Positions 14,030-26,357 are shown, counted from the stretch's first letter. The stretch is DNA of 39,748 bases from Bdellovibrionales bacterium (GCA_023299885.1 JALZUS010000009.1:1-39748), one strand, 5' to 3'. Notes: a model not told the origin generated them from the sequence alone. Made by a program: numbers and translations.

Positions 14030-15337
14030 TTAGTTATTAAGTTGTCTATCAAATTTGGCAGGTGTGATAGAGTTAGTTCCAAGGCTATCATTTAAGCCTG
14101 GAGTATAGGCGCCTTTAAAGCTGATTGATTTAGTGTCAGCATCATAGCTGATTTCATCTGGGCTTAAAACTCTAACCATAGTTCCTTCTTCTTTGCCTTG
14201 TTTCCATTGGTACTCATCGCTTAATCTTAAAAGATTAACATTAGAAGCAGTTACTTTATCTGTAATTTTTCTAGTAACAGTTACTTTAATGTCATCAATG
14301 TTTTTTGGCTCACGACCTAAAACGATAACTGGCTCACCTTCAATTTTAATGATCTCTTCAGTGATTCCACTAAATACATCGCTAAAGTTGTCCATAATGC
14401 AGTATGGAGTTTGGCCAAGTAGCTCTGCAACTTTTTGCGGCCTTTCGCCTACAGAAAATATTCTTAAAGCGTTGGCATTATAAATAGCTTCTTGCTCTTC
14501 AGCCGTATAGCTATCATCTTCTACGAACTTAGGGTTTAAACCATTTGCAACAGCTTCAGATCTTGTGCAAGTTCCGGCTTCTGTACAAGCAGCTCGTACA
14601 GCTTCAACAGCTCTAACAGTACATGTGTCGCCTGTTTTACTGTCATCAGTAATAACAATAGGAGCAAAGATATGGTTATTGTCTTTAGAAAAGCCATTAA
14701 GCTCGGTTGCAATAGTAGCTGGTGATATTAATGCAGAATTATTTAAATAGCCCTTTAAGCCACTTTCTATTTGAGTAATGTTTAAATTTCCGCAAGCTTC
14801 GCCATCTTTTCTAGAGCAATCATCTTCGTTAGAAGCAAGAAGTGTTACTTTTATTGCGTCTAGATTTAGCTTTCCATCTTCTTTAATTTTTTTCCATGCA
14901 TTTACAGCAGACTCAAGGCCACGTTCATCAGTGTTGCCTTTGTCTCCTACTACATCTTTGTTAGTTTCAAAATCTAAGCAGTTTTTAATTTTAGCTACTA
15001 AAGCACTTTTACTAAGACCTTTAGTTTTAAAGCTTTCTTGAAGCTCTTGTAATTTATCATTTACTTTTATGTTAAAGGCATGTGTGCAAAAAACCTCTAC
15101 ATCGTTAGTTGATATGTTATTAACGAAGCTTGGGATATTTTTAATAAGTTGAGCATTTACAGATTTCATTGAAGACGTATGATCGGCAACGATAACCATT
15201 TGTACGGCTTGTGTCTGAACAGAGCCTTGTACAGTTGTTGACGCGCTTACAGGTAGTAACTCGATACTTGCGTCATGTCCTCCACAAGCAGCTAAAAGTA
15301 AACCCATTGATGATGTTGCTAGTAACTTTTTAATCAT
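14030..15337 (-). CDS. Lipoprotein with von Willebrand factor A-like domain
   Basis: This 435-residue protein has a lipoprotein signal ending LLAAC (Cys18) and, after a Ser/Thr/Gln-rich linker, a vWA-like strand VQMVIVADHTSS. Residues D52-x-T54-x-S56 form a MIDAS-type metal site with Thr in place of the usual first Ser. Later parts (VTLLASNEDDCSRKDGEACGN, IFAPIVITDDSK, IFSVGERPQ) fit the alternating strands and helices of such a domain. vWA lipoproteins commonly mediate surface binding or complex assembly. The ligand is unknown. AGGAG precedes the ATG. It lies downstream of the motor-like cluster on the same strand but 239 bases away, and it is bracketed by the two related repeats. Confidence 0.72.
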   Translation of the reverse strand: MIKKLLATSSMGLLLAACGGHDASIELLPVSASTTVQGSVQTQAVQMVIVADHTSSMKSVNAQLIKNIPSFVNNISTNDVEVFCTHAFNIKVNDKLQELQESFKTKGLSKSALVAKIKNCLDFETNKDVVGDKGNTDERGLESAVNAWKKIKEDGKLNLDAIKVTLLASNEDDCSRKDGEACGNLNITQIESGLKGYLNNSALISPATIATELNGFSKDNNHIFAPIVITDDSKTGDTCTVRAVEAVRAACTEAGTCTRSEAVANGLNPKFVEDDSYTAEEQEAIYNANALRIFSVGERPQKVAELLGQTPYCIMDNFSDVFSGITEEIIKIEGEPVIVLGREPKNIDDIKVTVTRKITDKVTASNVNLLRLSDEYQWKQGKEEGTMVRVLSPDEISYDADTKSISFKGAYTPGLNDSLGTNSITPAKFDRQLNN

Positions 15338-15575: not shown

Positions 15576-17042
15576 CTACCTGATGGGTTTGATTTCACAG
15601 CGGCTTTTGATAGCGGCTTGAACTCCGCCTTTTTCATCTTTCCAGTTCTCGCCTAGGTAGCCCCAGCTGAGTTGGCTTTTTCCATAAAGTTTAAATGGAT
15701 TTATTCTTTTCTCTTTTATTTTCTTGCCTAAAGATCTAATTCTTATTTCATCACTAGAACGTGATAAAACTTCAAACTCTACAAGTTCTGCTTGGTTAAG
15801 AATGCTTTTTAGTTCTGTTTTTAGGTTTGCAAACCTGTACTTAAAATACTTATTAGAAAGAGCTTTGATAGCATCAATTCTACTATCTAAAGAGACAATT
15901 CTAGGTCTTGTTGTTTGCGAGTACTGTTTGTAGGCAAGCTTACTTGCTGCCGACTTATTCTTTTTAAATTGTTTTTTTAGAGCCTCTATAGCCTCTATTT
16001 CAGAAATATAGTTATTAATAGTGTTTTGCATTCTTAAGGCGTCAGGCTGGACACCTAAATATCTTAATACCTCTGTGGGGTAACCTTTATAGAGTTTTTT
16101 AGGTGATTTATTAATGCTATTTACAAAATGGTTATAAAGCTGATTTCCTTGTTTGTTTTTAATAATTTCATGAATAGATTTATAATGATTATTGATTATA
16201 TCTACAGATTTTTTTGCTTCAGGATAATGGCAAAGCTTTAAAAAGCTAATGCTTTGAGAAAGTAATAAGCTGGGTTTCCATGCTCTTTCAGATGTACTTT
16301 TTTGAACATAAAAAGCATTCCCTAAAGCCTTTGACTCCTTGTTTAGTGATAAGTATGTCCAACTCACTTCAGTTAAGCCTTCTGGCCAGATAGGGCTTGT
16401 AGCTCTTACTTTTTTATACGCTTTTTCAGCCGCCGAGTAGCGCCCGCCGGCATTTAAAAGCTTGCCTAAGCTTGAGTAGAGAATGTCACCAAATTTTAAA
16501 TCTTCATCTGAGAGTTTATTTTTGTCTTTGAGTCGAAAAATACTTTCTGCTTTTTGCATATATTTAAGTGCGCTTTTAACTTGTTTTTTATTGAGATGAG
16601 CCACTGAGCGCAAATAGTAGATAGAGTCATCAACCTCGCTGCCGCCTTGTAAGTTTCTAGTAATAGCTAATACAGAGTCATATTTACTTTGTAAATTATA
16701 GAGCTTGGCTTTTTCATTTATTAGGTAATTTCTAGCTTCGCCTTTTAAGCTTTTAAGGCTCATCTTGCTGACAATAGTATTTACTTTCTCTTCGTAGCCT
16801 GCTGGCGTTTGAGATAATATTTTTAATAAAGCCGCTTTATTGCTTGTACGCTTTGATAGCTGCCCTAAAACATTAAGCTTGTCAGTTGTAAGTTCGTATT
16901 CATTTAAGCATTTAGCAGTTATATAAGAGCCTTTTTGAGTATTATAAAATTTTGCAATCTCATCTATACAATTACTTTTTTTTGCAGCTTGGGATAGGCT
17001 GCATGATAAAGAAATAACTAATGCTAATAAAATACGAGTCAT
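15576..17042 (-). CDS. Exported TPR-like protein at the end of the Agl/Glt-like cluster
   Basis: This 488-residue protein has a signal peptide (MTRILLALVISLSCSLSQAA) and a helical, repeat-rich body. Segments such as SIYYLRSVAHLNKKQVKSAL (near 138) and LGKLLNAGGRYSAAEKAYKK (near 192) read as TPR units. The C-terminal third is coiled-coil-like and rich in Lys, Ser and Leu (residues 345-440). It starts nine bases after the outer-membrane beta-barrel gene, so the two are co-transcribed. A periplasmic scaffold role is inferred. It could correspond to one of the periplasmic TPR Glt proteins, but I cannot say which. Confidence 0.75.
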   Translation of the reverse strand: MTRILLALVISLSCSLSQAAKKSNCIDEIAKFYNTQKGSYITAKCLNEYELTTDKLNVLGQLSKRTSNKAALLKILSQTPAGYEEKVNTIVSKMSLKSLKGEARNYLINEKAKLYNLQSKYDSVLAITRNLQGGSEVDDSIYYLRSVAHLNKKQVKSALKYMQKAESIFRLKDKNKLSDEDLKFGDILYSSLGKLLNAGGRYSAAEKAYKKVRATSPIWPEGLTEVSWTYLSLNKESKALGNAFYVQKSTSERAWKPSLLLSQSISFLKLCHYPEAKKSVDIINNHYKSIHEIIKNKQGNQLYNHFVNSINKSPKKLYKGYPTEVLRYLGVQPDALRMQNTINNYISEIEAIEALKKQFKKNKSAASKLAYKQYSQTTRPRIVSLDSRIDAIKALSNKYFKYRFANLKTELKSILNQAELVEFEVLSRSSDEIRIRSLGKKIKEKRINPFKLYGKSQLSWGYLGENWKDEKGGVQAAIKSRCEIKPIR

Positions 17043-17051
17043 AAAAAATCC

Positions 17052-17768
17052 TTAAAATAAAATATTAATGCCAGCTTTTAAAACAGTGTCGTTAATTAAA
17101 CGGCTTCCTTCGTCATCGCCATCTTGAAAGCTTCTTATGTCTGAGTTGTACCAATTGTTTTCAAGATCAATTCTTAACGCGAATGACTTATTAAGATAAA
17201 AAAGCTGATGAACGCCAAAACCTGCAGAAATTGTAGATTGCTCACTGTCTTCTGCTTGAGTGATTTGCTCATAACTTACTAAGCCAACTCTTAAAGAAAA
17301 CATAAGGTCAAAGTAGATAAGGTTAGTGCCTAAGAGGCTCATTTTTGCATAGATAGGAGAATATAAAAGCTTTGCACCAAATGTATTAGTTGTGCGCCCA
17401 TATTCAAAAGTAGCGGCCCCTGTAGATTCATTATTTAGAGCCTCTTGAGCTTCACCATCTTCTAAAAAAGATTGAGTGTAATCAAGTTCTATACCTAGAT
17501 GCTCGTTAAAGAAATAACCAGCTGCAAAAGTAGCTGCAAATCCGTCACTATAAGGGTCGTTAATATGTAAGCCACCTAATAAAGAGATATTTAAGCGATT
17601 CTGTTTTGCAAAATACCTTTTTTGAATCACTCTGTACTCACCTTTGCTTGGTGACCAGTAATTATCGATAAGTTTTTTAGTATTTACTTTTTTTGCACGT
17701 CTTTTACTTTGTGCCATTGATGTATGTGCTGTCGCTAGTGTTAGCAAAACAATAATAATGTATTTCAT
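17052..17768 (-). CDS. Outer-membrane beta-barrel protein (myxobacterial-type OMP domain)
   Basis: I choose ATG 17768 (238 residues) because AAGGA lies about eight bases upstream and the protein then begins with a proper signal peptide (MKYIIIVLLTLATAHTSMAQ); a start at 17807 would add thirteen unsuited residues. After a short basic stretch, YRVIQKRYFAKQNRLNIS, LLGGLHINDPYSDGF and AAGYFFNEHLGIELDYTQS match the pattern of the outer-membrane beta-barrel domain common in Myxococcus and Bdellovibrio. The chain ends INILF, a C-terminal aromatic suited for BAM. It probably forms a small barrel serving as the outer-membrane part of the cluster. Confidence 0.82.
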   Translation of the reverse strand: MKYIIIVLLTLATAHTSMAQSKRRAKKVNTKKLIDNYWSPSKGEYRVIQKRYFAKQNRLNISLLGGLHINDPYSDGFAATFAAGYFFNEHLGIELDYTQSFLEDGEAQEALNNESTGAATFEYGRTTNTFGAKLLYSPIYAKMSLLGTNLIYFDLMFSLRVGLVSYEQITQAEDSEQSTISAGFGVHQLFYLNKSFALRIDLENNWYNSDIRSFQDGDDEGSRLINDTVLKAGINILF

Positions 17769-17839
17769 GATGAAGTCCTTCTCTTGCTTTAAAGGAAGGC
17801 TATCCATGCTCTCCTTGTAATCTTTTAATTCATTAAAAC

Positions 17840-19384
17840 TTAGTTCGTCTTTAAGTGAAATGGATATTCTACTTGAACCAAAGTCCCGCCTTTAGGTTTT
17901 GGAAATTGCCATTTCTTAATTGCATTGTTAATACATCCTGCCACTTTTGCATCTCTTAAAGTATTTCTACGTGAAGCAATAGTACTTACTCTACCACTAG
18001 AGTTTATAACAAAACGTGGCTCATAGACACCCTGAAGGCTTGGATTTAAGCCGAGTCTTCTGTTGTAACAGTAATTAATATCACCTTTATTTCTTCTGAT
18101 AACTCTTTCTATTTCTGCTCGGCTTAAACCGCCGGTAACAGTCATGTCATCACCTAGGCCTGAAACAATGCCTCTTTTGGAGTTACCGTTAGAGATACCC
18201 TCGCCAGTGCCCAGACCTTTGCCGTGTCCGCCAAGGCTTAATGTCCTTCCAGAGCCTAGTTTATAAGATCCAAGCCCATCGCCTTTACCGCCTTTGCCGC
18301 CAATACCAAGATCATCACCAGAACCAAAAGAACGGCCCTTTCTTCTTGAATCAAATGACCCTGCTACACCATTAGGTGTTGCCGTGGCAGATCCATAAGA
18401 TTTTGCTTTAGAGTTAATTCCTAAAGAGCCTGCAAGGTTAGCTAGAGAGCTCGTTTTGTTAGAATCAATAGCTGTTTTTCCTGAAATAGTTCCTTTTGAT
18501 TTTTTAGCACCAGATTTAGATTGGACTATTTTTTTAGAAACTGTACTTTTACTGCTATTGGCAGCAGACTTTTTAATACGCTTAGCTTTTACTTTAGGCC
18601 CTGCTACTTTAGGTTTAGAAGAGGCTTTTTTTGCAGTTGGTTTCACCGCTGCTTTAACTGGAGTGTCTTTAGGTGTTGTAAAGATTTTTTCACGTTTTTC
18701 CTGAAGCTTTGCTTGATCTATCTTAATAACATCAAGCTGTTTATTGCTATTTTTATAATCTTTTATCCATTTTAAGCCAAAATTTAACACTAATATAGCT
18801 ACTACTATGCCGGCATAAACTTTTAATGATTTTTTGATAGTATCTTTGTTTTCAGCTACAAAATCATTAACTTGCTTTTGCTCTAATGGGTTTACATAAA
18901 CTACACGAGTCTTATATTGAAGCCCCGATTCTTTTGATTCATGAGACTCCCAATCAGTAGAAAGCGGAGCTTTAATTTTAATAGTTTTGCTTCCGGCAGT
19001 GACCTTAATAACTTTTTTAAAAGGAAGGACATCAGTATGTACAACTCCGTTTGCTTGGTATGTCAGTAATTGAATTTGCTTAGTAGCACTGCGCTCTTTG
19101 CTAGTGAAATCAAAATCAGGAGATTTTATATCTACTAAAGACATCTCAATCTTAACATCCTTAGAGATAACCAATGCTTGCCCATTATTAACTTTTTTCT
19201 CAAACATCATCCAATCACCAGACTTGTTTGTTACTACTGATACTGAATTAAACTTGCTTTTTTCTTTTGAAATATTATGTAACACAGTAGGCTCTAAAAT
19301 TTGCACCTCTTTTTGGTTAGGATGAGCCGTTTTTGTAAGTACAAGTTTTCCATTTTTAAATATTTTTGCTACTAATAACTTCAT
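17840..19384 (-). CDS. AgmX/PglI (GltG/GltJ-like) trans-envelope linker protein
   Basis: This 514-residue protein has four parts: a cytoplasmic beta-rich N-terminal region (1-183); one transmembrane helix (186-205); a long periplasmic linker that is Lys/Ala/Ser-rich (225-300) then Gly-rich (325-405); and a C-terminal domain (419-514). The last begins LSRAEIERVIRRNKGDINYCYN and contains GVYEPRFVINSSGRVS and VAGCINNAIKKWQFP. This is the TonB-like AgmX/PglI C-terminal domain, with Cys439 and Cys484 able to form a disulfide. In Myxococcus GltG and GltJ have this layout and connect the AglRQS motor to the outer membrane. The start overlaps the preceding gene by one base (TAATG). Confidence 0.85.
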   Translation of the reverse strand: MKLLVAKIFKNGKLVLTKTAHPNQKEVQILEPTVLHNISKEKSKFNSVSVVTNKSGDWMMFEKKVNNGQALVISKDVKIEMSLVDIKSPDFDFTSKERSATKQIQLLTYQANGVVHTDVLPFKKVIKVTAGSKTIKIKAPLSTDWESHESKESGLQYKTRVVYVNPLEQKQVNDFVAENKDTIKKSLKVYAGIVVAILVLNFGLKWIKDYKNSNKQLDVIKIDQAKLQEKREKIFTTPKDTPVKAAVKPTAKKASSKPKVAGPKVKAKRIKKSAANSSKSTVSKKIVQSKSGAKKSKGTISGKTAIDSNKTSSLANLAGSLGINSKAKSYGSATATPNGVAGSFDSRRKGRSFGSGDDLGIGGKGGKGDGLGSYKLGSGRTLSLGGHGKGLGTGEGISNGNSKRGIVSGLGDDMTVTGGLSRAEIERVIRRNKGDINYCYNRRLGLNPSLQGVYEPRFVINSSGRVSTIASRRNTLRDAKVAGCINNAIKKWQFPKPKGGTLVQVEYPFHLKTN

Positions 19385-19641
19385 TAGTCTCTCCCAGTAA
19401 ATCTAGAGAGCTCATTCACTCTGTCTAAGTAATTACTATTTTGACTAAATATATAATCAAATTTATCAGGCTTAAGCTCTTTAATGACAGACCTCGATGA
19501 TTCAAAGCCTTCCCCGTATAATGTAGAGCCTCTGAATTTATGCTCCTTTTTATTTTCATAGCTTGAGCTGCCTTTTTTTACTTGGGCAAAAGAGCTCGTA
19601 CTTATAAATATAAGGCTTAACAGAATAAGAGCTTTCATCAT
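19384..19641 (-). CDS. Small exported protein within the Agl/Glt-like cluster
   Basis: This 85-residue protein has a signal peptide ending ISTSSFAQ (about residue 20) and a 65-residue polar mature part with no cysteine or membrane segment. GGGAG precedes the ATG. Its start overlaps the stop of the 934-residue TPR gene by four bases (ATGA), and its stop shares a base with the start of the AgmX/PglI-like gene, so all three are translationally coupled. I do not recognise a family. The position argues for a small periplasmic accessory of the machine. Confidence 0.75.
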   Translation of the reverse strand: MMKALILLSLIFISTSSFAQVKKGSSSYENKKEHKFRGSTLYGEGFESSRSVIKELKPDKFDYIFSQNSNYLDRVNELSRFTGRD

Positions 19642-22442
19642 ACTTTCTCCCTGATTTTTCTAACCTGTATTTTCATTCTAGTTTCTAAAGTTTTAAATTT
19701 TCTTTTGTAAGCTTTGCTTACTTTTTTATTGCTGCCCATATGGTCTTTAGCTAGCTCAGTAGCTTCTAAAAATGAGCCTCTTAAAACTTCTGCCACTTGA
19801 ATGAGTTCTTTCTTAGTTGAAGAAACGCTATTCGGTGAACCTTCAATTTTTAAGCTGTTCATATAATCAAATATCTCAATATAGGCTTTATTAATCTCAT
19901 AGAGCGACTTAACTGAAGACTCGCTATCATTGTAGTCTAATACTTCTTGATGCTTTCCAATAAACTTAGTTCCAGACCTTACAGCCTTTTCAACTAAGCT
20001 TTTTGCTTGAGTTGGGCTTAATATATCTCTTGTTTTTTTAAGTTCAAATTTAGCTATTTTAGTCCCTAAATGAGTAGCTCGCCCTTTAACTTCACTGCTT
20101 GCACTGCGGCTTTTTCTTATAGTTCTTATGTTTTGAGCCATTTTAGAATGTTTCTTAGATCTGTAAGCATACTCGGCCTCTTTGTACCAAGCTTCAGCTT
20201 TAAAAGGCTCTTTAGCTTCTCTTTTTAATGTAGCTAAAGAGTAAAGGTAAAATTTATGCTTTGGTTTTTCGACAAAATCAAAAAGCCTTTGGTGCATTTG
20301 CTCATTTACTTTTTCGTTATTAGATTTTAATAAAGCTGACACATTAGCTTGGGCCATTTTATAGTTTTTTGCCTTTATATAGTTATCTGTTTTAACCCAT
20401 TTCCAAGCCTGTTTGTTCACTGGGTCTGCACCCTCTAACAGCTGAGCTACTGTAGCGACATCATTGTATTTTTTCTTCTTTTTATAGATTTCAAGGGCCT
20501 GATTAAGCCCTCCTAAAGATTTTTCATTTTTTGGGTTTTGCTTATAATATTTTACATATTGATCTGCTGCCAATTTCCATGAATTGTCTTTTTTATAGTT
20601 AACAGCCATGTTCCATGACGCTTTAATTTTTTTATTAGGATCAAAACCTTTTGCAATAAAACCAGATAGGTATTCATTTGCTTTTTTATATTTTTTCTTT
20701 GACTCAAATTGCTCTGCTGCTTTGAAAAACGAGTCTTCATAGGCTAATTTTAACCCACGTAACCGTCTATGCTCTCTATTGAGTAGAACTAATTCACCTA
20801 AGTATCTGTTTGCACTTACATAATCTTTTTTATCTTCAAATATTTTCAGTGCACCATCTTGTGACTCTATGCCTTTTTTTGTGTTTGGGAATTTTTTACC
20901 TAAACTTATAAATACAGCTTGTGCTGGATCTAGTTGCCCTAGCTGGACATCTACCCTGGCAACTTTATAAAACATATTTAAGTACTGGCTGCCCCTTGGA
21001 TATTTTGTACCGTAAGTGCGTGTTAAGCTATTAAGCCTATTTCTTTGCTCTACGCTCCATTTATCATTAGTCACAGATTCTACCTGTGTTGCTACAGATG
21101 ATATCCACAAGTCTTCAGCTTTGTTGTCTGTCGTTAATGCGGCTGCTTGTTCATAGTGATGACTGGCTTTTGAATAGTTTTTCACTTCTCTATAAGTTTC
21201 TGCAGCTATATTATGAATCTTACTTTGTTTTATATTATCGCTGTTACCAAATAAAATTAAGCCTTCTGCAAGATTGGCTACAGCCGGAGCTATAGTAGCC
21301 GTTGATTTTGTTTTTTTAAGCCAAAGATTATACCATGTCTCTAAATGCGTTCGCGCTTGAGAAGATATTTTTTGCTTAGCTTCACTATCTTTCTTGTTAA
21401 TAGACTTATAGGCAATATTATAAAGCTTTGAAGATTCTATAAAGCGATCTTGGTTCTCTAGTGCGACAGCTCTATGAAGACTATATTCCCAGAGCCTACT
21501 TGAAGACCTATAATCTTTTAGTAATACATCAAGGATAGCTGACTCAGAATTAAAATCTGATTTATCTCTAAAAGCTACAGATTGCTCCAAAAGTACAGAT
21601 TCAAGATCATCTTTGTTTTTTGCTATAGATGAATAAAAGGCGTTTGCTTCTTGCCCTTTTTTAGCTTCAACAAAAAATATTGGAAGATCTGAAAGTACAT
21701 CTTCATACACGTCAAACTTTGAGCTAGAAGCTGCTGAAGCGTTTACGGCGGACTTCATGTCCGCTAATGCTGATTTGCTGTTGCCCATAAAATACTGCGT
21801 CCAAGCTCTTTTATAAATACTGTAAGCTCTTTCAGCAAAATTTTTGTCTGACTGAGCTACAGTATAGTATTTGTAAGCTTCCTTGTGATTCTTTCTTCCG
21901 TAGTAGATTTCACCTAAAGCATTGTTAATTTCTGATTTTCTTGGGGTATTTCTAAATTCTGACAAATACAGTTTAAAGTTTTCTATGGCTTTTTTTTCAT
22001 TATTTTTACCGCTATAAGCATTTGCTAAAAGGTAAAGAACATCTTCTCTTTTGCTGTACTTTGGGTATTTATTCTTAATAGCTTCTGTATTAACAATAAT
22101 TTGAGAAAGATAATTTGATATGCTTTTTAGATTTGTAAAATTAACCCCATTATCTAGAGTTTTATTTTTTTTATTAAAATCGACAAAGTATTTTGTCATT
22201 ACTTTTTTAAGATACAAGTCAGCAAGTCTATGCCTCACTTGTGGCTCAATGGCTGTACCCTGATGCTTTCTTATAAGGTTTTTAGCTTTTTCAATAGCTA
22301 AATCTTCATTGTGATGAGCAATAAATTCAACAGAAGTTGATTTCTTTTTGTTAAGCAGAAACTGTACAAAATCTTTTTGACCAGCAAAAACAGTTGATGT
22401 GCAAAAAACCACAAATAAAACTAAATTTAAATATATTCTCAT
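19638..22442 (-). CDS. Large exported TPR protein (GltE/AglT-like scaffold)
   Basis: This 934-residue protein has a signal peptide (residues 1-20, ending VFAG) and is helical repeat throughout. TPR-type units include YLLANAYSGKNNEKKAIENF (near 127), ALGEIYYGRKNHKEAYKYYT (near 166) and AETYREVKNYSKASHHYEQA (near 408). It is probably a periplasmic solenoid scaffold. In Myxococcus, TPR proteins (including GltE/AglT) accompany the Agl motor. The 139-base gap upstream is the longest inside the cluster; it has a small GGGA...TCCC inverted repeat but no promoter I trust. The four-base overlap with the 85-residue gene couples them. Confidence 0.8.
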   Translation of the reverse strand: MRIYLNLVLFVVFCTSTVFAGQKDFVQFLLNKKKSTSVEFIAHHNEDLAIEKAKNLIRKHQGTAIEPQVRHRLADLYLKKVMTKYFVDFNKKNKTLDNGVNFTNLKSISNYLSQIIVNTEAIKNKYPKYSKREDVLYLLANAYSGKNNEKKAIENFKLYLSEFRNTPRKSEINNALGEIYYGRKNHKEAYKYYTVAQSDKNFAERAYSIYKRAWTQYFMGNSKSALADMKSAVNASAASSSKFDVYEDVLSDLPIFFVEAKKGQEANAFYSSIAKNKDDLESVLLEQSVAFRDKSDFNSESAILDVLLKDYRSSSRLWEYSLHRAVALENQDRFIESSKLYNIAYKSINKKDSEAKQKISSQARTHLETWYNLWLKKTKSTATIAPAVANLAEGLILFGNSDNIKQSKIHNIAAETYREVKNYSKASHHYEQAAALTTDNKAEDLWISSVATQVESVTNDKWSVEQRNRLNSLTRTYGTKYPRGSQYLNMFYKVARVDVQLGQLDPAQAVFISLGKKFPNTKKGIESQDGALKIFEDKKDYVSANRYLGELVLLNREHRRLRGLKLAYEDSFFKAAEQFESKKKYKKANEYLSGFIAKGFDPNKKIKASWNMAVNYKKDNSWKLAADQYVKYYKQNPKNEKSLGGLNQALEIYKKKKKYNDVATVAQLLEGADPVNKQAWKWVKTDNYIKAKNYKMAQANVSALLKSNNEKVNEQMHQRLFDFVEKPKHKFYLYSLATLKREAKEPFKAEAWYKEAEYAYRSKKHSKMAQNIRTIRKSRSASSEVKGRATHLGTKIAKFELKKTRDILSPTQAKSLVEKAVRSGTKFIGKHQEVLDYNDSESSVKSLYEINKAYIEIFDYMNSLKIEGSPNSVSSTKKELIQVAEVLRGSFLEATELAKDHMGSNKKVSKAYKRKFKTLETRMKIQVRKIREKV

Positions 22443-22581
22443 AACGCCTACTTATCGGGAGTTTCCCTACTAATGTTGAGGCAAATAAAACACCAGTACC
22501 TTGGTCTAATTAGGCGATACCTAGCAAGTTGAAGTGAACTGTTTTTGTTAAAATTTTATACAGAGGGTTTATTGTGCTGTT

Positions 22582-23607
22582 TTAGAATTTTTTATTTATT
22601 TCAATACCATACTTATAAATAAAGTCTCCGGATCTATTTATTTCAGAGCCAAAAACACTATCAACTTGGTCTGGGAAATCAACAGTAAACCTATTATCTT
22701 CTTTTGAAATACCTAGCTGTAATAGAACTCCAGCTTTACCTAAATTAAATAACTTCTGGTCAAAATCTAAACCATACTCATCATAAAGCTTAGTATCTAA
22801 CTTTCTATATAACGACAGATTAGTGCTTTTATACGAAAAATCTAATGATGTGTTTATATAAGCGGCCTGCAAATCTTTTGTATTAGAATGCTTAAGCCCT
22901 AATTCGCCCGTAAAGCTTAGTTTGCTATTTTTATTTTTAAAAATATTTAAAGTTTTACCGACCCCTGCTGCTCCAGCAATCGTAATTCTTCCTGGAGCAT
23001 GCTCAATAACTTCATATTGAACACTTTGAAAACCATCACTCGTCTCTAAATTTCTTGCTAAATAATGAAATGTATCTTGTATAAATAAGGCGACACCAGG
23101 CTTGTCGTTGGCATAAGAAAGCTCAGTTTCAAAAACCAAAAAGTATTTATTTTTAATATTACGCTTTAATTTGATAATAGCGCCGTCGTTACTAATATTC
23201 TCTGTTCTTGTCTTTCCATTCTCTGCAAACACCGTAACGCTACCATCTGGAAGCACTGTTGGGGATAATCTTGAATATAAGCTAGAAAAAAACTCTATAG
23301 ACAGCTCTGCATTTTCATAACGCCTTAATGCTTCAATGCTAATTTCAAAAGTTTGACCTAAGTCATCTCCTTCTAGGTTATCAGATGGTTTTAAACCTAA
23401 AACCTGCCCTCCACCATGTAATAAATTATCATTTGTTGTTACTAGAGAAAAACTTGTGTCTTCTAGGCGGCCAAATTTAAACAAAGAGAACTCTTCGATT
23501 TGCTGACCGAGCTCTTGTGGTATTTCTATAGAATACTGAGCAGCTTCTTGAGCTTGGCTAGCTAGAGAAGCCATTAAAAACAAAAAAATAATCGTTATGA
23601 TTTTCAT
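22582..23607 (-). CDS. Exported beta-rich protein, putative outer-membrane protein
   Basis: This 341-residue protein has a signal peptide (MKIITIIFLFLMASLASQAQ). The mature chain alternates polar and hydrophobic residues, particularly in the last 120 residues (LSFTGELGLKHSN, YINTSLDFSYKSTNLSLYRK, GVLLQLGISKEDNRFTVDF), and ends in Phe, as in outer-membrane barrels. FGRLEDTSFSLVTTNDNLLH near residue 45 vaguely recalls the LpxR-type lipid A deacylase start, but the active-site pattern is not clear enough to call. It overlaps the stop of the ankyrin gene by four bases (ATGA). A second outer-membrane component of the machine is possible. Confidence 0.62.
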   Translation of the reverse strand: MKIITIIFLFLMASLASQAQEAAQYSIEIPQELGQQIEEFSLFKFGRLEDTSFSLVTTNDNLLHGGGQVLGLKPSDNLEGDDLGQTFEISIEALRRYENAELSIEFFSSLYSRLSPTVLPDGSVTVFAENGKTRTENISNDGAIIKLKRNIKNKYFLVFETELSYANDKPGVALFIQDTFHYLARNLETSDGFQSVQYEVIEHAPGRITIAGAAGVGKTLNIFKNKNSKLSFTGELGLKHSNTKDLQAAYINTSLDFSYKSTNLSLYRKLDTKLYDEYGLDFDQKLFNLGKAGVLLQLGISKEDNRFTVDFPDQVDSVFGSEINRSGDFIYKYGIEINKKF

Positions 23608-24623
23608 TTTAATACCTTTATCGCATTTTTGTTATTTGCATATATTGCTTTTTCTAGCGCAGTTTCGCTAGAGCTGTCTCTAATAGATTTTTGTGCTTTT
23701 CTTGAAATTAAGTATTCTAATTTTTCTATACTTCTGGCCATAGCATATTTCATCAATGCCGTCTCACCGAACTTTTTTTGGTAATCAATTGGGTAGCCAG
23801 CATCTAATAAGCGATCGGCAATATGCAAGTGACTTCCAGCAAGCGCTATGTCAAATAGAGTGCCATCATATGCTGCCTCATAATATTGGCTGCTGTTTTT
23901 CTCAAAAATTTGTTTATTATTGAATTCCATTAAATCCTCAAACAAGCCTACTCTTCCATATTTTATAACATGAGCTATCAACGTGTACCCAGAATTATCC
24001 ACAGAAAATAAATCTAAGCCAGCGTCTATTAATAACAATAGGGCCTGCCTATTATTACCAATAGCTATGTATTTAGAAACTGACTGTTTTAGTTGATTTC
24101 TGTGATTAGGGTCTACACCTAGCTCCAGCAATAAACTGACAGCAGTATTATTTCCGGCATAAGCTGCACTCATTAATGGTGTTCTTTTATAGTTATCTTC
24201 TAAATTAAAAGGGGGCTGCAAAGAAGTTAATAGTTTTCTATATTTTTCTTTATTTTCACTATTCACTTTTATAGCTATGCTATGCACAATGCTCTCGCCC
24301 CTATTGTTAACCAGTGATAAATCAGACTGTTTATATAAAAAGTTAATAAGCTTTATATTATGTCTTAAGTTTTTATTTTTTTTACTAATATTGCTCTGGC
24401 CCTCACCTATTATAGCCATCTGCAAAAGAGTTCTACCCTTTTTATCTTTTTGGTTAATATCAAAACCATGATTAAGGCAACTTTTAACAAGTTTTATATT
24501 TCCAAGATAAGCTCCGTTATGACACTGCTTGATGTTAGCTTTTTTATTTCCAATATCAGCAAATGCTAAAGATAGGAAACTAAATGTAATTGCTAATATA
24601 GAGATTGAGATTTTTTTTATCAT
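23604..24623 (-). CDS. Exported ankyrin-repeat protein
   Basis: This 339-residue protein has a signal peptide (about residues 1-22, ending LAFA) and at least six ankyrin-like units. Examples are GRTLLQMAIIGEG (near 64), KRTPLMSAAYAGNNTAVSLLL (near 146), GTLFDIALAGSHLHIADRLL (near 254) and GETALMKYAMARSIEKLEYL (near 284). The last repeat is cut off by the stop codon. Ankyrin repeats bind proteins; the signal peptide places this one in the periplasm or beyond. It starts nine bases after the second TolR-like gene and overlaps the next gene by four bases. No ankyrin protein belongs to the Glt set I know. Confidence 0.82.
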   Translation of the reverse strand: MIKKISISILAITFSFLSLAFADIGNKKANIKQCHNGAYLGNIKLVKSCLNHGFDINQKDKKGRTLLQMAIIGEGQSNISKKNKNLRHNIKLINFLYKQSDLSLVNNRGESIVHSIAIKVNSENKEKYRKLLTSLQPPFNLEDNYKRTPLMSAAYAGNNTAVSLLLELGVDPNHRNQLKQSVSKYIAIGNNRQALLLLIDAGLDLFSVDNSGYTLIAHVIKYGRVGLFEDLMEFNNKQIFEKNSSQYYEAAYDGTLFDIALAGSHLHIADRLLDAGYPIDYQKKFGETALMKYAMARSIEKLEYLISRKAQKSIRDSSSETALEKAIYANNKNAIKVLK

Positions 24624-24632
24624 ATCGTTTTC

Positions 24633-25112
24633 TTAGTTACCAGAAATTGAAGCGAGCTTAATGTCTGTGATTCCTGAAATGGCTAAAGTGTATATTATCT
24701 TCCTTAAAGTTTTATAAGGAACTGCTTTGTCAGGCTGTAAAACCCAAGTATGACCAGTTTTTTCTTTGAAGTCTTCTTGCTTAGATAGTTCTTGATAGAT
24801 AGTTTCAACAAAATCACTATCTTTTTTACTTAAGTCAGCCCTTAAAAACGTACCTCTTGATAATTTAGCTATAACTTGATCGTCTAACATAACTTGGTTT
24901 GCTGAAATAGCTATAGGTACTAATGTTTCAGTAACAATAGGCTGAGAGTACGACGTAATAGGTAGCTCTACGTTTTTTTCTTGTTTAATTTTATCAGTAG
25001 TGTTTGAAAACTGAACTAAAAAGAAAACCAATAGTATAGTAAAGGCATCTACAAGCGCTGTTAATTGTACGCTATGAGTTTTAACTGTTTTCTTTTTTCT
25101 ACGCTTAATCAT
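24633..25112 (-). CDS. TolR/ExbD-like proton-channel subunit (AglS-like)
   Basis: This 159-residue protein has a basic N-terminus (KRRKKKTVK), one transmembrane helix (about 17-36) and a periplasmic domain, the ExbD/TolR layout. Asp22 in LTALVDAFTILLVFF sits where ExbD/TolR place the protonatable aspartate essential for proton-motive-force use. It follows the first TolR-like gene by 47 bases and precedes the ankyrin gene by nine. In Myxococcus the AglQ and AglS pair plays this role with AglR. Confidence 0.85.
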   Translation of the reverse strand: MIKRRKKKTVKTHSVQLTALVDAFTILLVFFLVQFSNTTDKIKQEKNVELPITSYSQPIVTETLVPIAISANQVMLDDQVIAKLSRGTFLRADLSKKDSDFVETIYQELSKQEDFKEKTGHTWVLQPDKAVPYKTLRKIIYTLAISGITDIKLASISGN

Positions 25113-25159
25113 TGTGATATTCCTTTGATTGTTTGCCTTATTTAGTGATCTTTAATAAT

Positions 25160-25657
25160 TTATAAAATTCCAGTTAACGATACATCTTTAAAAAGAGGAG
25201 CTTTGTTTTCTGTATCTACTTTTTTACCTAGATCAAATACAGCGATAAGCTCATCGTAACTTACATTAGACTGAGGGTTGACCTTAAGAGATACAATCAT
25301 TGGCCAGTCATGCTTGATGTGCTTAAAAGTCTTTTCAAGCTTGTCGTAAGAAATTTGACCAGCACTATCATTAATATTGAATTTTTTTAATACTTTCTTA
25401 GATGTTTTAATAAGTATTGTGGCATTTCTATTGTTTGAAACAGTTAAAAAAGCAGATGGAGTTTCTTTTAATCCCTCTTTAGTTTCTTTTTGAGAGCTCT
25501 CTTGAACAAAAATTGAACTATCAAAACTTTGGACCTTATAAAAAGACACAGATAACAGGATCATTGGTATTAATGAAACCATAAGTGACAACATCGGAGC
25601 TAAATCGAGTTCTTTAACTTCTGCGCTTTTTCTTGATCTTCTTTTAAGTAAGTTCAT
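25160..25657 (-). CDS. TolR/ExbD-like subunit lacking the usual transmembrane Asp (AglQ-like position)
   Basis: This 165-residue protein has a basic N-terminus (NLLKRRSRK), a single transmembrane helix (about 20-40) and a periplasmic region ending in the YDELIAVFDLGKK pattern typical of ExbD family C-termini. The aligned motif PMLSLMVSL (residues 21-29) has Ser24 where TolR (PLLD) and ExbD (PFID) have Asp. The nearest acidic residues, Glu16 and Asp18, precede the helix. It lies 61 bases after the TolQ-like gene. It is probably a non-protonating partner in a mixed dimer; the alternative is that Asp18 has taken over. Confidence 0.8.
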   Translation of the reverse strand: MNLLKRRSRKSAEVKELDLAPMLSLMVSLIPMILLSVSFYKVQSFDSSIFVQESSQKETKEGLKETPSAFLTVSNNRNATILIKTSKKVLKKFNINDSAGQISYDKLEKTFKHIKHDWPMIVSLKVNPQSNVSYDELIAVFDLGKKVDTENKAPLFKDVSLTGIL

Positions 25658-25718
25658 TTTATTTCTCCTATATAAACTTTATCTACTTTTTAAACTGGTA
25701 TTTTTTAATTATTATGAC

Positions 25719-26357
25719 TTAAGAGAACACTCTTGCTTTTAATATATCAATAACAACAGAGGCTTGGTGTTGAGCTTGATCGACAAGATTGTTAAACCTA
25801 GAGTTCAGGTATGAAAACATTAGTAATATTGGGATGGCACAAGCTAAGCCCATGGCTGTAGTACTCATCGCCATAGAGATACCGTTTGATAAAGCCACTT
25901 GCTTAGCTTCAGCAGAAACAGTAGCTAATGCAGAGAAAGAGTAAATAAGGCCAACAATTGTACCTAATAGACCTACAAGAGTAGATACGTTAGCTAACAT
26001 TGGTAAGTAATCCATACGCTTAAATAATTCTGGCTCCATTTCACCTAAAGTTAATTCAACAGCATGGTACATAGACGCTTCGTCTCTATCAGCTCTTTCT
26101 AAAACAGCTTTTACAGCTTGAGCCGCAGGCATTTCTTTATTAGCGTCACAAAAAGTAATTGCTTTACCAATTTCATCTTTATAAACATATTCTTTAATTT
26201 TGCTTATAAACTGACCTGCATCTAACTTGTTCTTCATAAATAGTGACTTATATTTTTCAATAATAATTATGATAGCTACAATTCCAATTACTGAAATAAA
26301 TAGGCCTGGTAAACCACTTGATTTTAAGGCTGTAGTTATAGTTATTAATAGATCCAT
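25719..26357 (-). CDS. MotA/TolQ/ExbB-family proton channel subunit (AglR-like)
   Basis: This 212-residue inner-membrane protein has three helices in the TolQ/ExbB arrangement (about 15-33, 120-142 and 165-184). The family signature spans helix 2 (TLVGLLGTIVGLIYSF) and helix 3 (SNGISMAMSTTAMGLACAIP), with a cytoplasmic loop of about 85 residues between helices 1 and 2. It would form the pentameric ion channel with the two downstream TolR-like subunits. AAAGGAG lies before the ATG and a 19-base palindrome lies just upstream of it, so this is the first gene of the cluster. Confidence 0.9.
   Translation of the reverse strand: MDLLITITTALKSSGLPGLFISVIGIVAIIIIIEKYKSLFMKNKLDAGQFISKIKEYVYKDEIGKAITFCDANKEMPAAQAVKAVLERADRDEASMYHAVELTLGEMEPELFKRMDYLPMLANVSTLVGLLGTIVGLIYSFSALATVSAEAKQVALSNGISMAMSTTAMGLACAIPILLMFSYLNSRFNNLVDQAQHQASVVIDILKARVFS

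Follow-up and report, generated by a model that had tools for sequence, protein, structure and literature searches.

Gene content and family assignment

The question raised by this locus was whether a tightly packed run of ten genes in a Bdellovibrionales bacterium encodes a gliding machine of the Agl/Glt kind, as the original prediction proposed, or a relative of that machine with a different role. The window, meaning the whole 39,748-nucleotide stretch that was analyzed, was a contig (C9) from a draft genome of 1.84 Mb and 92% completeness. Ten open reading frames were confirmed on the minus strand between positions 15576 and 26357, arranged on one strand as predicted. Neighboring frames overlapped by 1–4 bases or sat 9–61 bases apart, with a single larger spacer of 139 bases separating the 934-aa TPR gene from the 341-aa gene, and all ten frames were intact (Table 1). 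Promoter-like sites were no commoner than in shuffles, and the 139-base spacer upstream of the TPR gene was accordingly not credited with a promoter; terminator-like sites were only slightly commoner.

Table 1. Features of the cluster and of the adjoining lipoprotein gene, with positions counted in the window
Feature	Coordinates	Strand	Evidence
TolQ/AglR-like motor channel subunit, 212 aa	25719..26357	-	MotA_ExbB 3.8e-24; pore threonines kept
TolR1, first TolR/ExbD-like subunit, 165 aa	25160..25657	-	ExbD 1e-06; Ser at mid-membrane Asp site, Asp six residues earlier
TolR2, second TolR/ExbD-like subunit, 159 aa	24633..25112	-	ExbD 1.2e-12; mid-membrane Asp present
Exported ankyrin-repeat protein, 339 aa	23604..24623	-	Ank_2 2.8e-27; lineage-specific insertion
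Exported 341-aa protein	22582..23607	-	No family match; lineage-specific insertion
Exported TPR protein, 934 aa, GltD-type position	19638..22442	-	TPR profiles; homologues
Small exported protein, 85 aa, between TPR and GltG-like genes	19384..19641	-	44% identity to L036 7966-8223
GltG-like one-TM transducer, 514 aa	17840..19384	-	NF033768 97 bits, NF033760 4e-26; AgmX/PglI domain at 420-512
Outer-membrane beta-barrel, 251 aa, GltA/GltB-type	17052..17807	-	TIGR04565 76 bits vs cut-off 60
GltC-like exported TPR protein, 488 aa	15576..17042	-	NF033756 9.5e-16
VWA/MIDAS-like lipoprotein, 435 aa, proposed surface adhesin	14030..15337	-	Lipobox; AlphaFold pLDDT 74; integrin I-domain Z 14.8

Profile searches against Pfam and NCBIfam, a check of the kind proposed with the original prediction, returned matches to models for the motor, GltC, GltG, AgmX/PglI, OMP_myx_plus and ankyrin. 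The expected motor layout held, with one TolQ/ExbB-like gene (MotA_ExbB) and two TolR/ExbD-like genes (both ExbD) in one operon, as did the AgmX/PglI-type domain at the C-terminus of the 514-aa protein, which exceeded the NF033768 cut-off of 40 bits more than twofold. The prediction of one or two outer-membrane barrels was borne out for the 251-aa OMP_myx_plus protein (TIGR04565), while no match supported a barrel nature for the 341-aa protein.

The Agl/Glt core complex has been defined as gltC, D, E and G together with aglRQS (PMC3169522). In the cluster, a GltC-like TPR protein was accompanied by a second TPR protein in the GltD place, and a separate GltE-like gene was absent. The GltG-like and GltC-like proteins reached 91.7 bits on NF033760 and 57.6 bits on NF033756, far under the equivalog cut-offs of 650 and 450, and were therefore treated as homologues at the family level, with no orthologue call. 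The tail of the GltG-like protein was related to TonB_C (3.8e-05 for the sister-cluster protein), and a sequence search of the PDB with the GltG-like protein gave no match.

Comparison with the M. xanthus Agl/Glt system (aglRQS, gltA-K) was based on NCBIfam models and published papers, not on direct alignment of its proteins. By these means, the cluster shared with M. xanthus the one-TolQ, two-TolR motor, the GltC-like and GltG-like proteins, the AgmX/PglI tail, TPR proteins and an OMP_myx_plus barrel. Unlike the M. xanthus system, which is spread over three clusters, it was one contiguous cluster with two additional genes (ankyrin and 341-aa). No GltH, I, J, K set was identified in it: the GltJ match was confined to the shared C-terminal domain, and GltH, GltI and GltK models were not among the profile matches to the cluster proteins. 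From these sequence comparisons, we regard the locus as a confirmed member of the Agl/Glt-type core complex, and its orthology to the gliding machine of M. xanthus as not established. TolQ and TolR homologues also occur in Tol-Pal; unlike that system, the cluster had two TolR genes and no TolA, TolB or Pal, in agreement with the earlier argument that it is not Tol-Pal. A TolB homologue did occur beside a TolQ-like gene on contig C83, which represented a separate Tol-type locus.

Subtypes across Bdellovibrionales

Gene order was compared across relatives, and eight of the ten genes were homologous to and collinear with Agl/Glt-type clusters of Bdellovibrionales. These eight core genes (GltC-like, OMP_myx_plus barrel, GltG-like with its AgmX/PglI tail, small exported protein, TPR protein, two TolR-like and one TolQ-like) make up a full Agl/Glt-type set, arranged as is usual in Bdellovibrionales. 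Two further Agl/Glt clusters were found in the host genome, on contigs C2 (L012) and C65 (L013). The C2 type was general among relatives, with the order Q-R1-R2-TPR-small-GltG-barrel-GltC and usually a GYF_2/PilZ gene just upstream; the C65 type and a third type occurred in B. bacteriovorus kdesi and others. The host genome also gave a PilT match over its cut-off.

In FastTree phylogenies, for which support values are local only, a separate clade with support 1.0 united the window cluster with cluster L036 of genome G015, and the C2 type was its sister group. The subtype was recovered in 2 of the 141 genomes of the order by a profile search at E 1e-90, a strict threshold at which more diverged members could be missed. 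Cluster L036, which belongs to another genus, matched the eight core genes one for one, in unchanged order and at 31–55% identity, with the ankyrin and 341-aa genes both absent. This marked the 85-aa protein as standard equipment and the other two genes as a local insertion. The 85-aa protein had been proposed as a new element, a claim that failed, as nearly every such cluster has one; in the common clusters, a gene of this type occupied the same place between the TPR and GltG-like genes.

Other differences set the subtype apart. Its TPR protein was 934 aa long, versus a form of 1270 aa, or split into about 1000 + 310 aa, in the common cluster; missing from it was the extra stretch of ~300 aa of the common type, often a separate gene. 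The GYF_2/PilZ gene did not accompany the subtype. From sequence and gene order, the window cluster is best described as a rare subtype distinct from the common Bdellovibrionales cluster. A Pfam search found no FHA domain in the 514-aa GltG-like protein; FHA loss was rejected as a subtype mark, since one Bdellovibrio-type common cluster and the type-3 clusters were also without it.

The same core genes make up the tonB/agl operons of B. bacteriovorus, of which four have been described (Bd0412-0420, Bd0828-0838, Bd1473-1483 and Bd2368-2377; PMC2797640). The comparison covered three kdesi clusters (L093, L166 and L167), two of which had a VWA lipoprotein beside them. Neither the window subtype nor the ankyrin and 341-aa genes were among these three, and the common type has a GYF_2/PilZ gene beside TolQ, unlike the window cluster.

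The neighboring VWA lipoprotein

Downstream of the GltC-like gene, after a gap of 238 bases, the same strand carried a gene for a lipoprotein. Its AlphaFold model, built with 38 aligned relatives, superposed on an integrin alpha2 I domain with an rmsd of 3.0 over 182 residues and gave a Foldseek match of 2.5e-05, and the modeled product showed a VWA/integrin I-domain fold. The lipobox Cys and the first Asp were invariant. The lipobox and VWA domain are shared with the Bdellovibrio MIDAS adhesins (Bd0875 family, NF052240); unlike these, the window protein read DHTSS (DxTxS) where the canonical MIDAS is DxSxS, and it had no match to NF052240. The VWA proteins beside common clusters resembled the Bd0875 family (PMC11003981), matching NF052240 at 1e-12 to 1e-20, all under the 700-bit equivalog cut-off.

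A homologue of the window protein (27.8%, 1.9e-33) stood beside sister cluster L036 in G015, at the opposite cluster end and in divergent orientation, which indicated that the linkage outlived a rearrangement. With the family profile, 36 of the 61 clusters whose flanks were long enough had a VWA lipoprotein within 3 kb; in Bdellovibrio it usually lay one gene upstream of TolQ. The whole-genome background was about 6–19 VWA profile matches, some of them fragments, per 1.8–3.3 Mb genome. The locus should be extended beyond the ten genes to include this gene, and the recurrent VWA/MIDAS lipoprotein represents a candidate adhesin for several Agl/Glt-type clusters. A general link of MIDAS lipoproteins to these clusters was not stated in the literature cited here. 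In M. xanthus, the VWA lipoprotein of the system would be CglB, a VWA surface adhesin of gliding as described in a paper cited in PMC13104615.

In B. bacteriovorus, transposon insertions in Bd1481 (aglR) and in Bd1483 weaken biofilm predation (PMC2277423), and insertion in Bd0838 (AglS) abolishes prey attachment (PMC6561027). Bd1483 is a MIDAS lipoprotein, and its deletion caused no prey-invasion defect (PMC11003981). It lies two locus numbers from Bd1481, and from this gene order we infer that the common cluster of kdesi is the Bd1473-1483 operon.

Proposed function and alternatives

We favor, at a little better than even, the reading in which the locus specifies an Agl/Glt-type, proton-driven force machine that spans the envelope and moves or tensions a VWA surface adhesin. 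TolQ, TolR1 and TolR2 would form a proton-driven motor in the inner membrane, which would pull or turn the GltG-like one-TM transducer, whose AgmX/PglI (TonB_C-like) tail would carry the motion into the periplasm. There the TPR proteins, together with the small exported protein, may act as a force relay, and the OMP_myx_plus barrel as the outer-membrane exit that passes force to the outer face. The proposed cargo would be the neighboring VWA/MIDAS lipoprotein, gripping a surface or a prey cell, and the role could be gliding, attachment or transport. In favor of this reading stood the homology and gene order, the separate clade shared with G015, the VWA fold and its recurrent linkage, the retained TolQ threonines and TolR2 Asp, and the B. 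bacteriovorus insertion mutants. Against it stood the two other Agl/Glt clusters in the same genome, one of the common type, the DHTSS motif and missing NF052240 match of the window VWA protein, the normal prey invasion after bd1483 deletion, the sub-cut-off GltC and GltG matches and the lack of an identified GltH, I, J, K set.

An unlikely alternative is a Ton-like or Nfs-like system, which would supply energy for moving or assembling an outer-membrane polymer or substrate and involve no adhesin for motility. The Nfs spore-coat machinery of M. xanthus is the closest Glt paralogue and shares the AglRQS motor (PMC3169522, PMC3858216). The relation of the GltG-like tail to TonB_C would suit such a system, as would the action of Agl-Nfs in spore coat assembly (PMC3858216), the presence of the core complex in non-gliding bacteria (PMC3169522) and the occurrence of an exported ankyrin protein in a TonB receptor/ExbBD/TonB operon of G015. 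The repeated linkage to VWA/MIDAS lipoproteins spoke against it, and the cluster held no TonB-dependent receptor or polysaccharide genes; nor did it hold sporulation genes, which set it apart from Nfs in gene content.

That the locus is the gliding machine proper of its host, with the same role as Agl-Glt in M. xanthus, appears improbable. As of 2026, the literature still described the machine behind Bdellovibrio gliding as unidentified (PMC13104615). The family membership and the motor layout on which the original prediction relied have stood; the link to gliding itself stays hypothetical, given two further Agl/Glt clusters in the genome, a subtype in so few genomes and a common type that is general and also present in the host. 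With the common C2 cluster available, the window subtype is not the best gliding candidate even in its own genome. A decaying duplicate that kept its open frames and lost its role could explain the rarity, the shortened TPR protein, the missing FHA domain and the missing GYF/PilZ partner, yet it is very improbable in view of the intact, tightly packed frames, the retained TolR2 Asp and TolQ threonines and the same eight genes in another genus at such divergence.

An aspartate switch in TolR1

The pore threonines of TolQ were kept in the window, and the mid-membrane proton-carrying Asp of TolR2 was present in 98 of 98 homologues. TolR1 in the window had Ser at this mid-membrane position (position 0) and Asp at position −6, unlike M. 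xanthus AglQ and AglS, both of which have been described with the Asp (PMC9389320). The 86 distinct TolR1-type proteins compared included one ordinary ExbD. Asp at −6 was combined with Ala, Ser or Gly at 0 in 65 of them, Asn at −6 with Asp at 0 in 20, and Ser at −6 with Asp at 0 in a single protein; no further combination occurred. Loss of the mid-membrane Asp was therefore always paired with an Asp six residues earlier.

When mapped on a tree that used only TolQ and TolR2, each of the two sites required four changes, three of which were forced by supported branches. The sites switched together and in opposite directions in all three independent pairs, a number too small for a significant sign test, on a tree with long branches. 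In a second order of the phylum, the Asn/Asp state was found in 29 of 30 TolR1 proteins and both acids in one; the canonical state is thus probably ancestral.

This residue pattern suggests an axle of two unlike halves with the mid-membrane acid on one only. We propose more tentatively, at somewhat below even, an obligate hetero-axle in which one TolR-like subunit bears the mid-membrane proton acid and the acid of the other has moved six residues toward the helix start. If so, the motor would be an asymmetric one-acid ion motor, unlike the known two-acid 5:2 rotary motors, and the AglQ/AglS-type subunits of this lineage would pair as heterodimers. The coupled switch offers a way to test by point mutation whether AglQ and AglS dimerize with each other or each with itself, a question left open in PMC9389320.

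The inserted ankyrin and 341-aa genes

Both genes were inserted between the TPR and TolR2 genes, and the sequence comparisons point to their gain in the window lineage. The ankyrin protein had been predicted as a new element, and its absence from sister cluster L036 upheld this as a real lineage-specific insertion; no orthologue was found in 39 relatives. Exported ankyrin proteins as such were not rare, an idea refuted by the several relatives that carry them, though never within Glt clusters.

The 341-aa protein was likewise a real insertion. It had no Pfam or NCBIfam family match, and the remaining 140 genomes of the order held no homologue of it. Homologues were found in 30 genomes outside the order, nearly all of one family, and those inspected were exported proteins of about 470–490 aa that stood alone without Glt neighbors. 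AlphaFold modeling from the single sequence gave a pLDDT of 32. The rare subtype with these two additions illustrates how individual lineages refit machines of this kind. At locus L171 of G015, the gene for an exported, lipoprotein-like ankyrin protein had a TonB-dependent receptor gene on one side and ExbB/ExbD/TonB genes on the other, which makes it another case of an exported ankyrin paired with a motor of this kind.

Acid Sites of TolR1 and Genes Associated with Agl/Glt-Type Clusters

In TolR1, the first TolR/ExbD-like subunit (window 25160-25657), and its homologues in loci L012-L137, loss of the mid-membrane Asp was coupled to the gain of an Asp six residues earlier, and no exceptions to this coupling were found among the 86 proteins. 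One TolR1 homologue from another order (L244, G182:C23) carried Asp at both sites (RPDLVPIMDS) and is a possible intermediate of this acid switch.

A VWA/MIDAS lipoprotein gene repeatedly adjoined Agl/Glt-type clusters of three subtypes. In the same genome as the window, AgmX/PglI-tail proteins were also encoded singly, outside any Glt cluster. A Bdellovibrio-type Agl/Glt cluster was carried by a MAG contig labelled Streptomyces griseus (L131, CALQIT020000121.1), and the contig is therefore probably mislabelled or contaminated.

Coordinates of VWA/MIDAS lipoprotein genes adjoining Agl/Glt-type clusters and of stand-alone AgmX/PglI-tail proteins
Feature	Location	Length
VWA/MIDAS lipoprotein	window 14030-15337	
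VWA/MIDAS lipoprotein	L036 13043-14365	
VWA/MIDAS lipoprotein	L093 8333-9379	
VWA/MIDAS lipoprotein	L166 16289-17560	
AgmX/PglI-tail protein	G000:C32:6074-6346 (L009)	155 aa
AgmX/PglI-tail protein	G000:C25:22064-22336 (L010)	251 aa

In G015:C5 (L171 3966-11049), the gene of a probable ankyrin lipoprotein was flanked by a TonB-dependent receptor gene on one side and by ExbB/ExbD/DUF3450/TonB genes on the other, a second case of an exported ankyrin linked to an envelope motor of the ExbB/ExbD kind.

The ORFs of ~470-490 aa near 7.5 kb in L211-L216, for which a Pfam search returned no match, encode exported proteins of an uncharacterised family to which the 341-aa protein of the window is related. 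Another bacterial family within the phylum has such proteins in many of its genomes.
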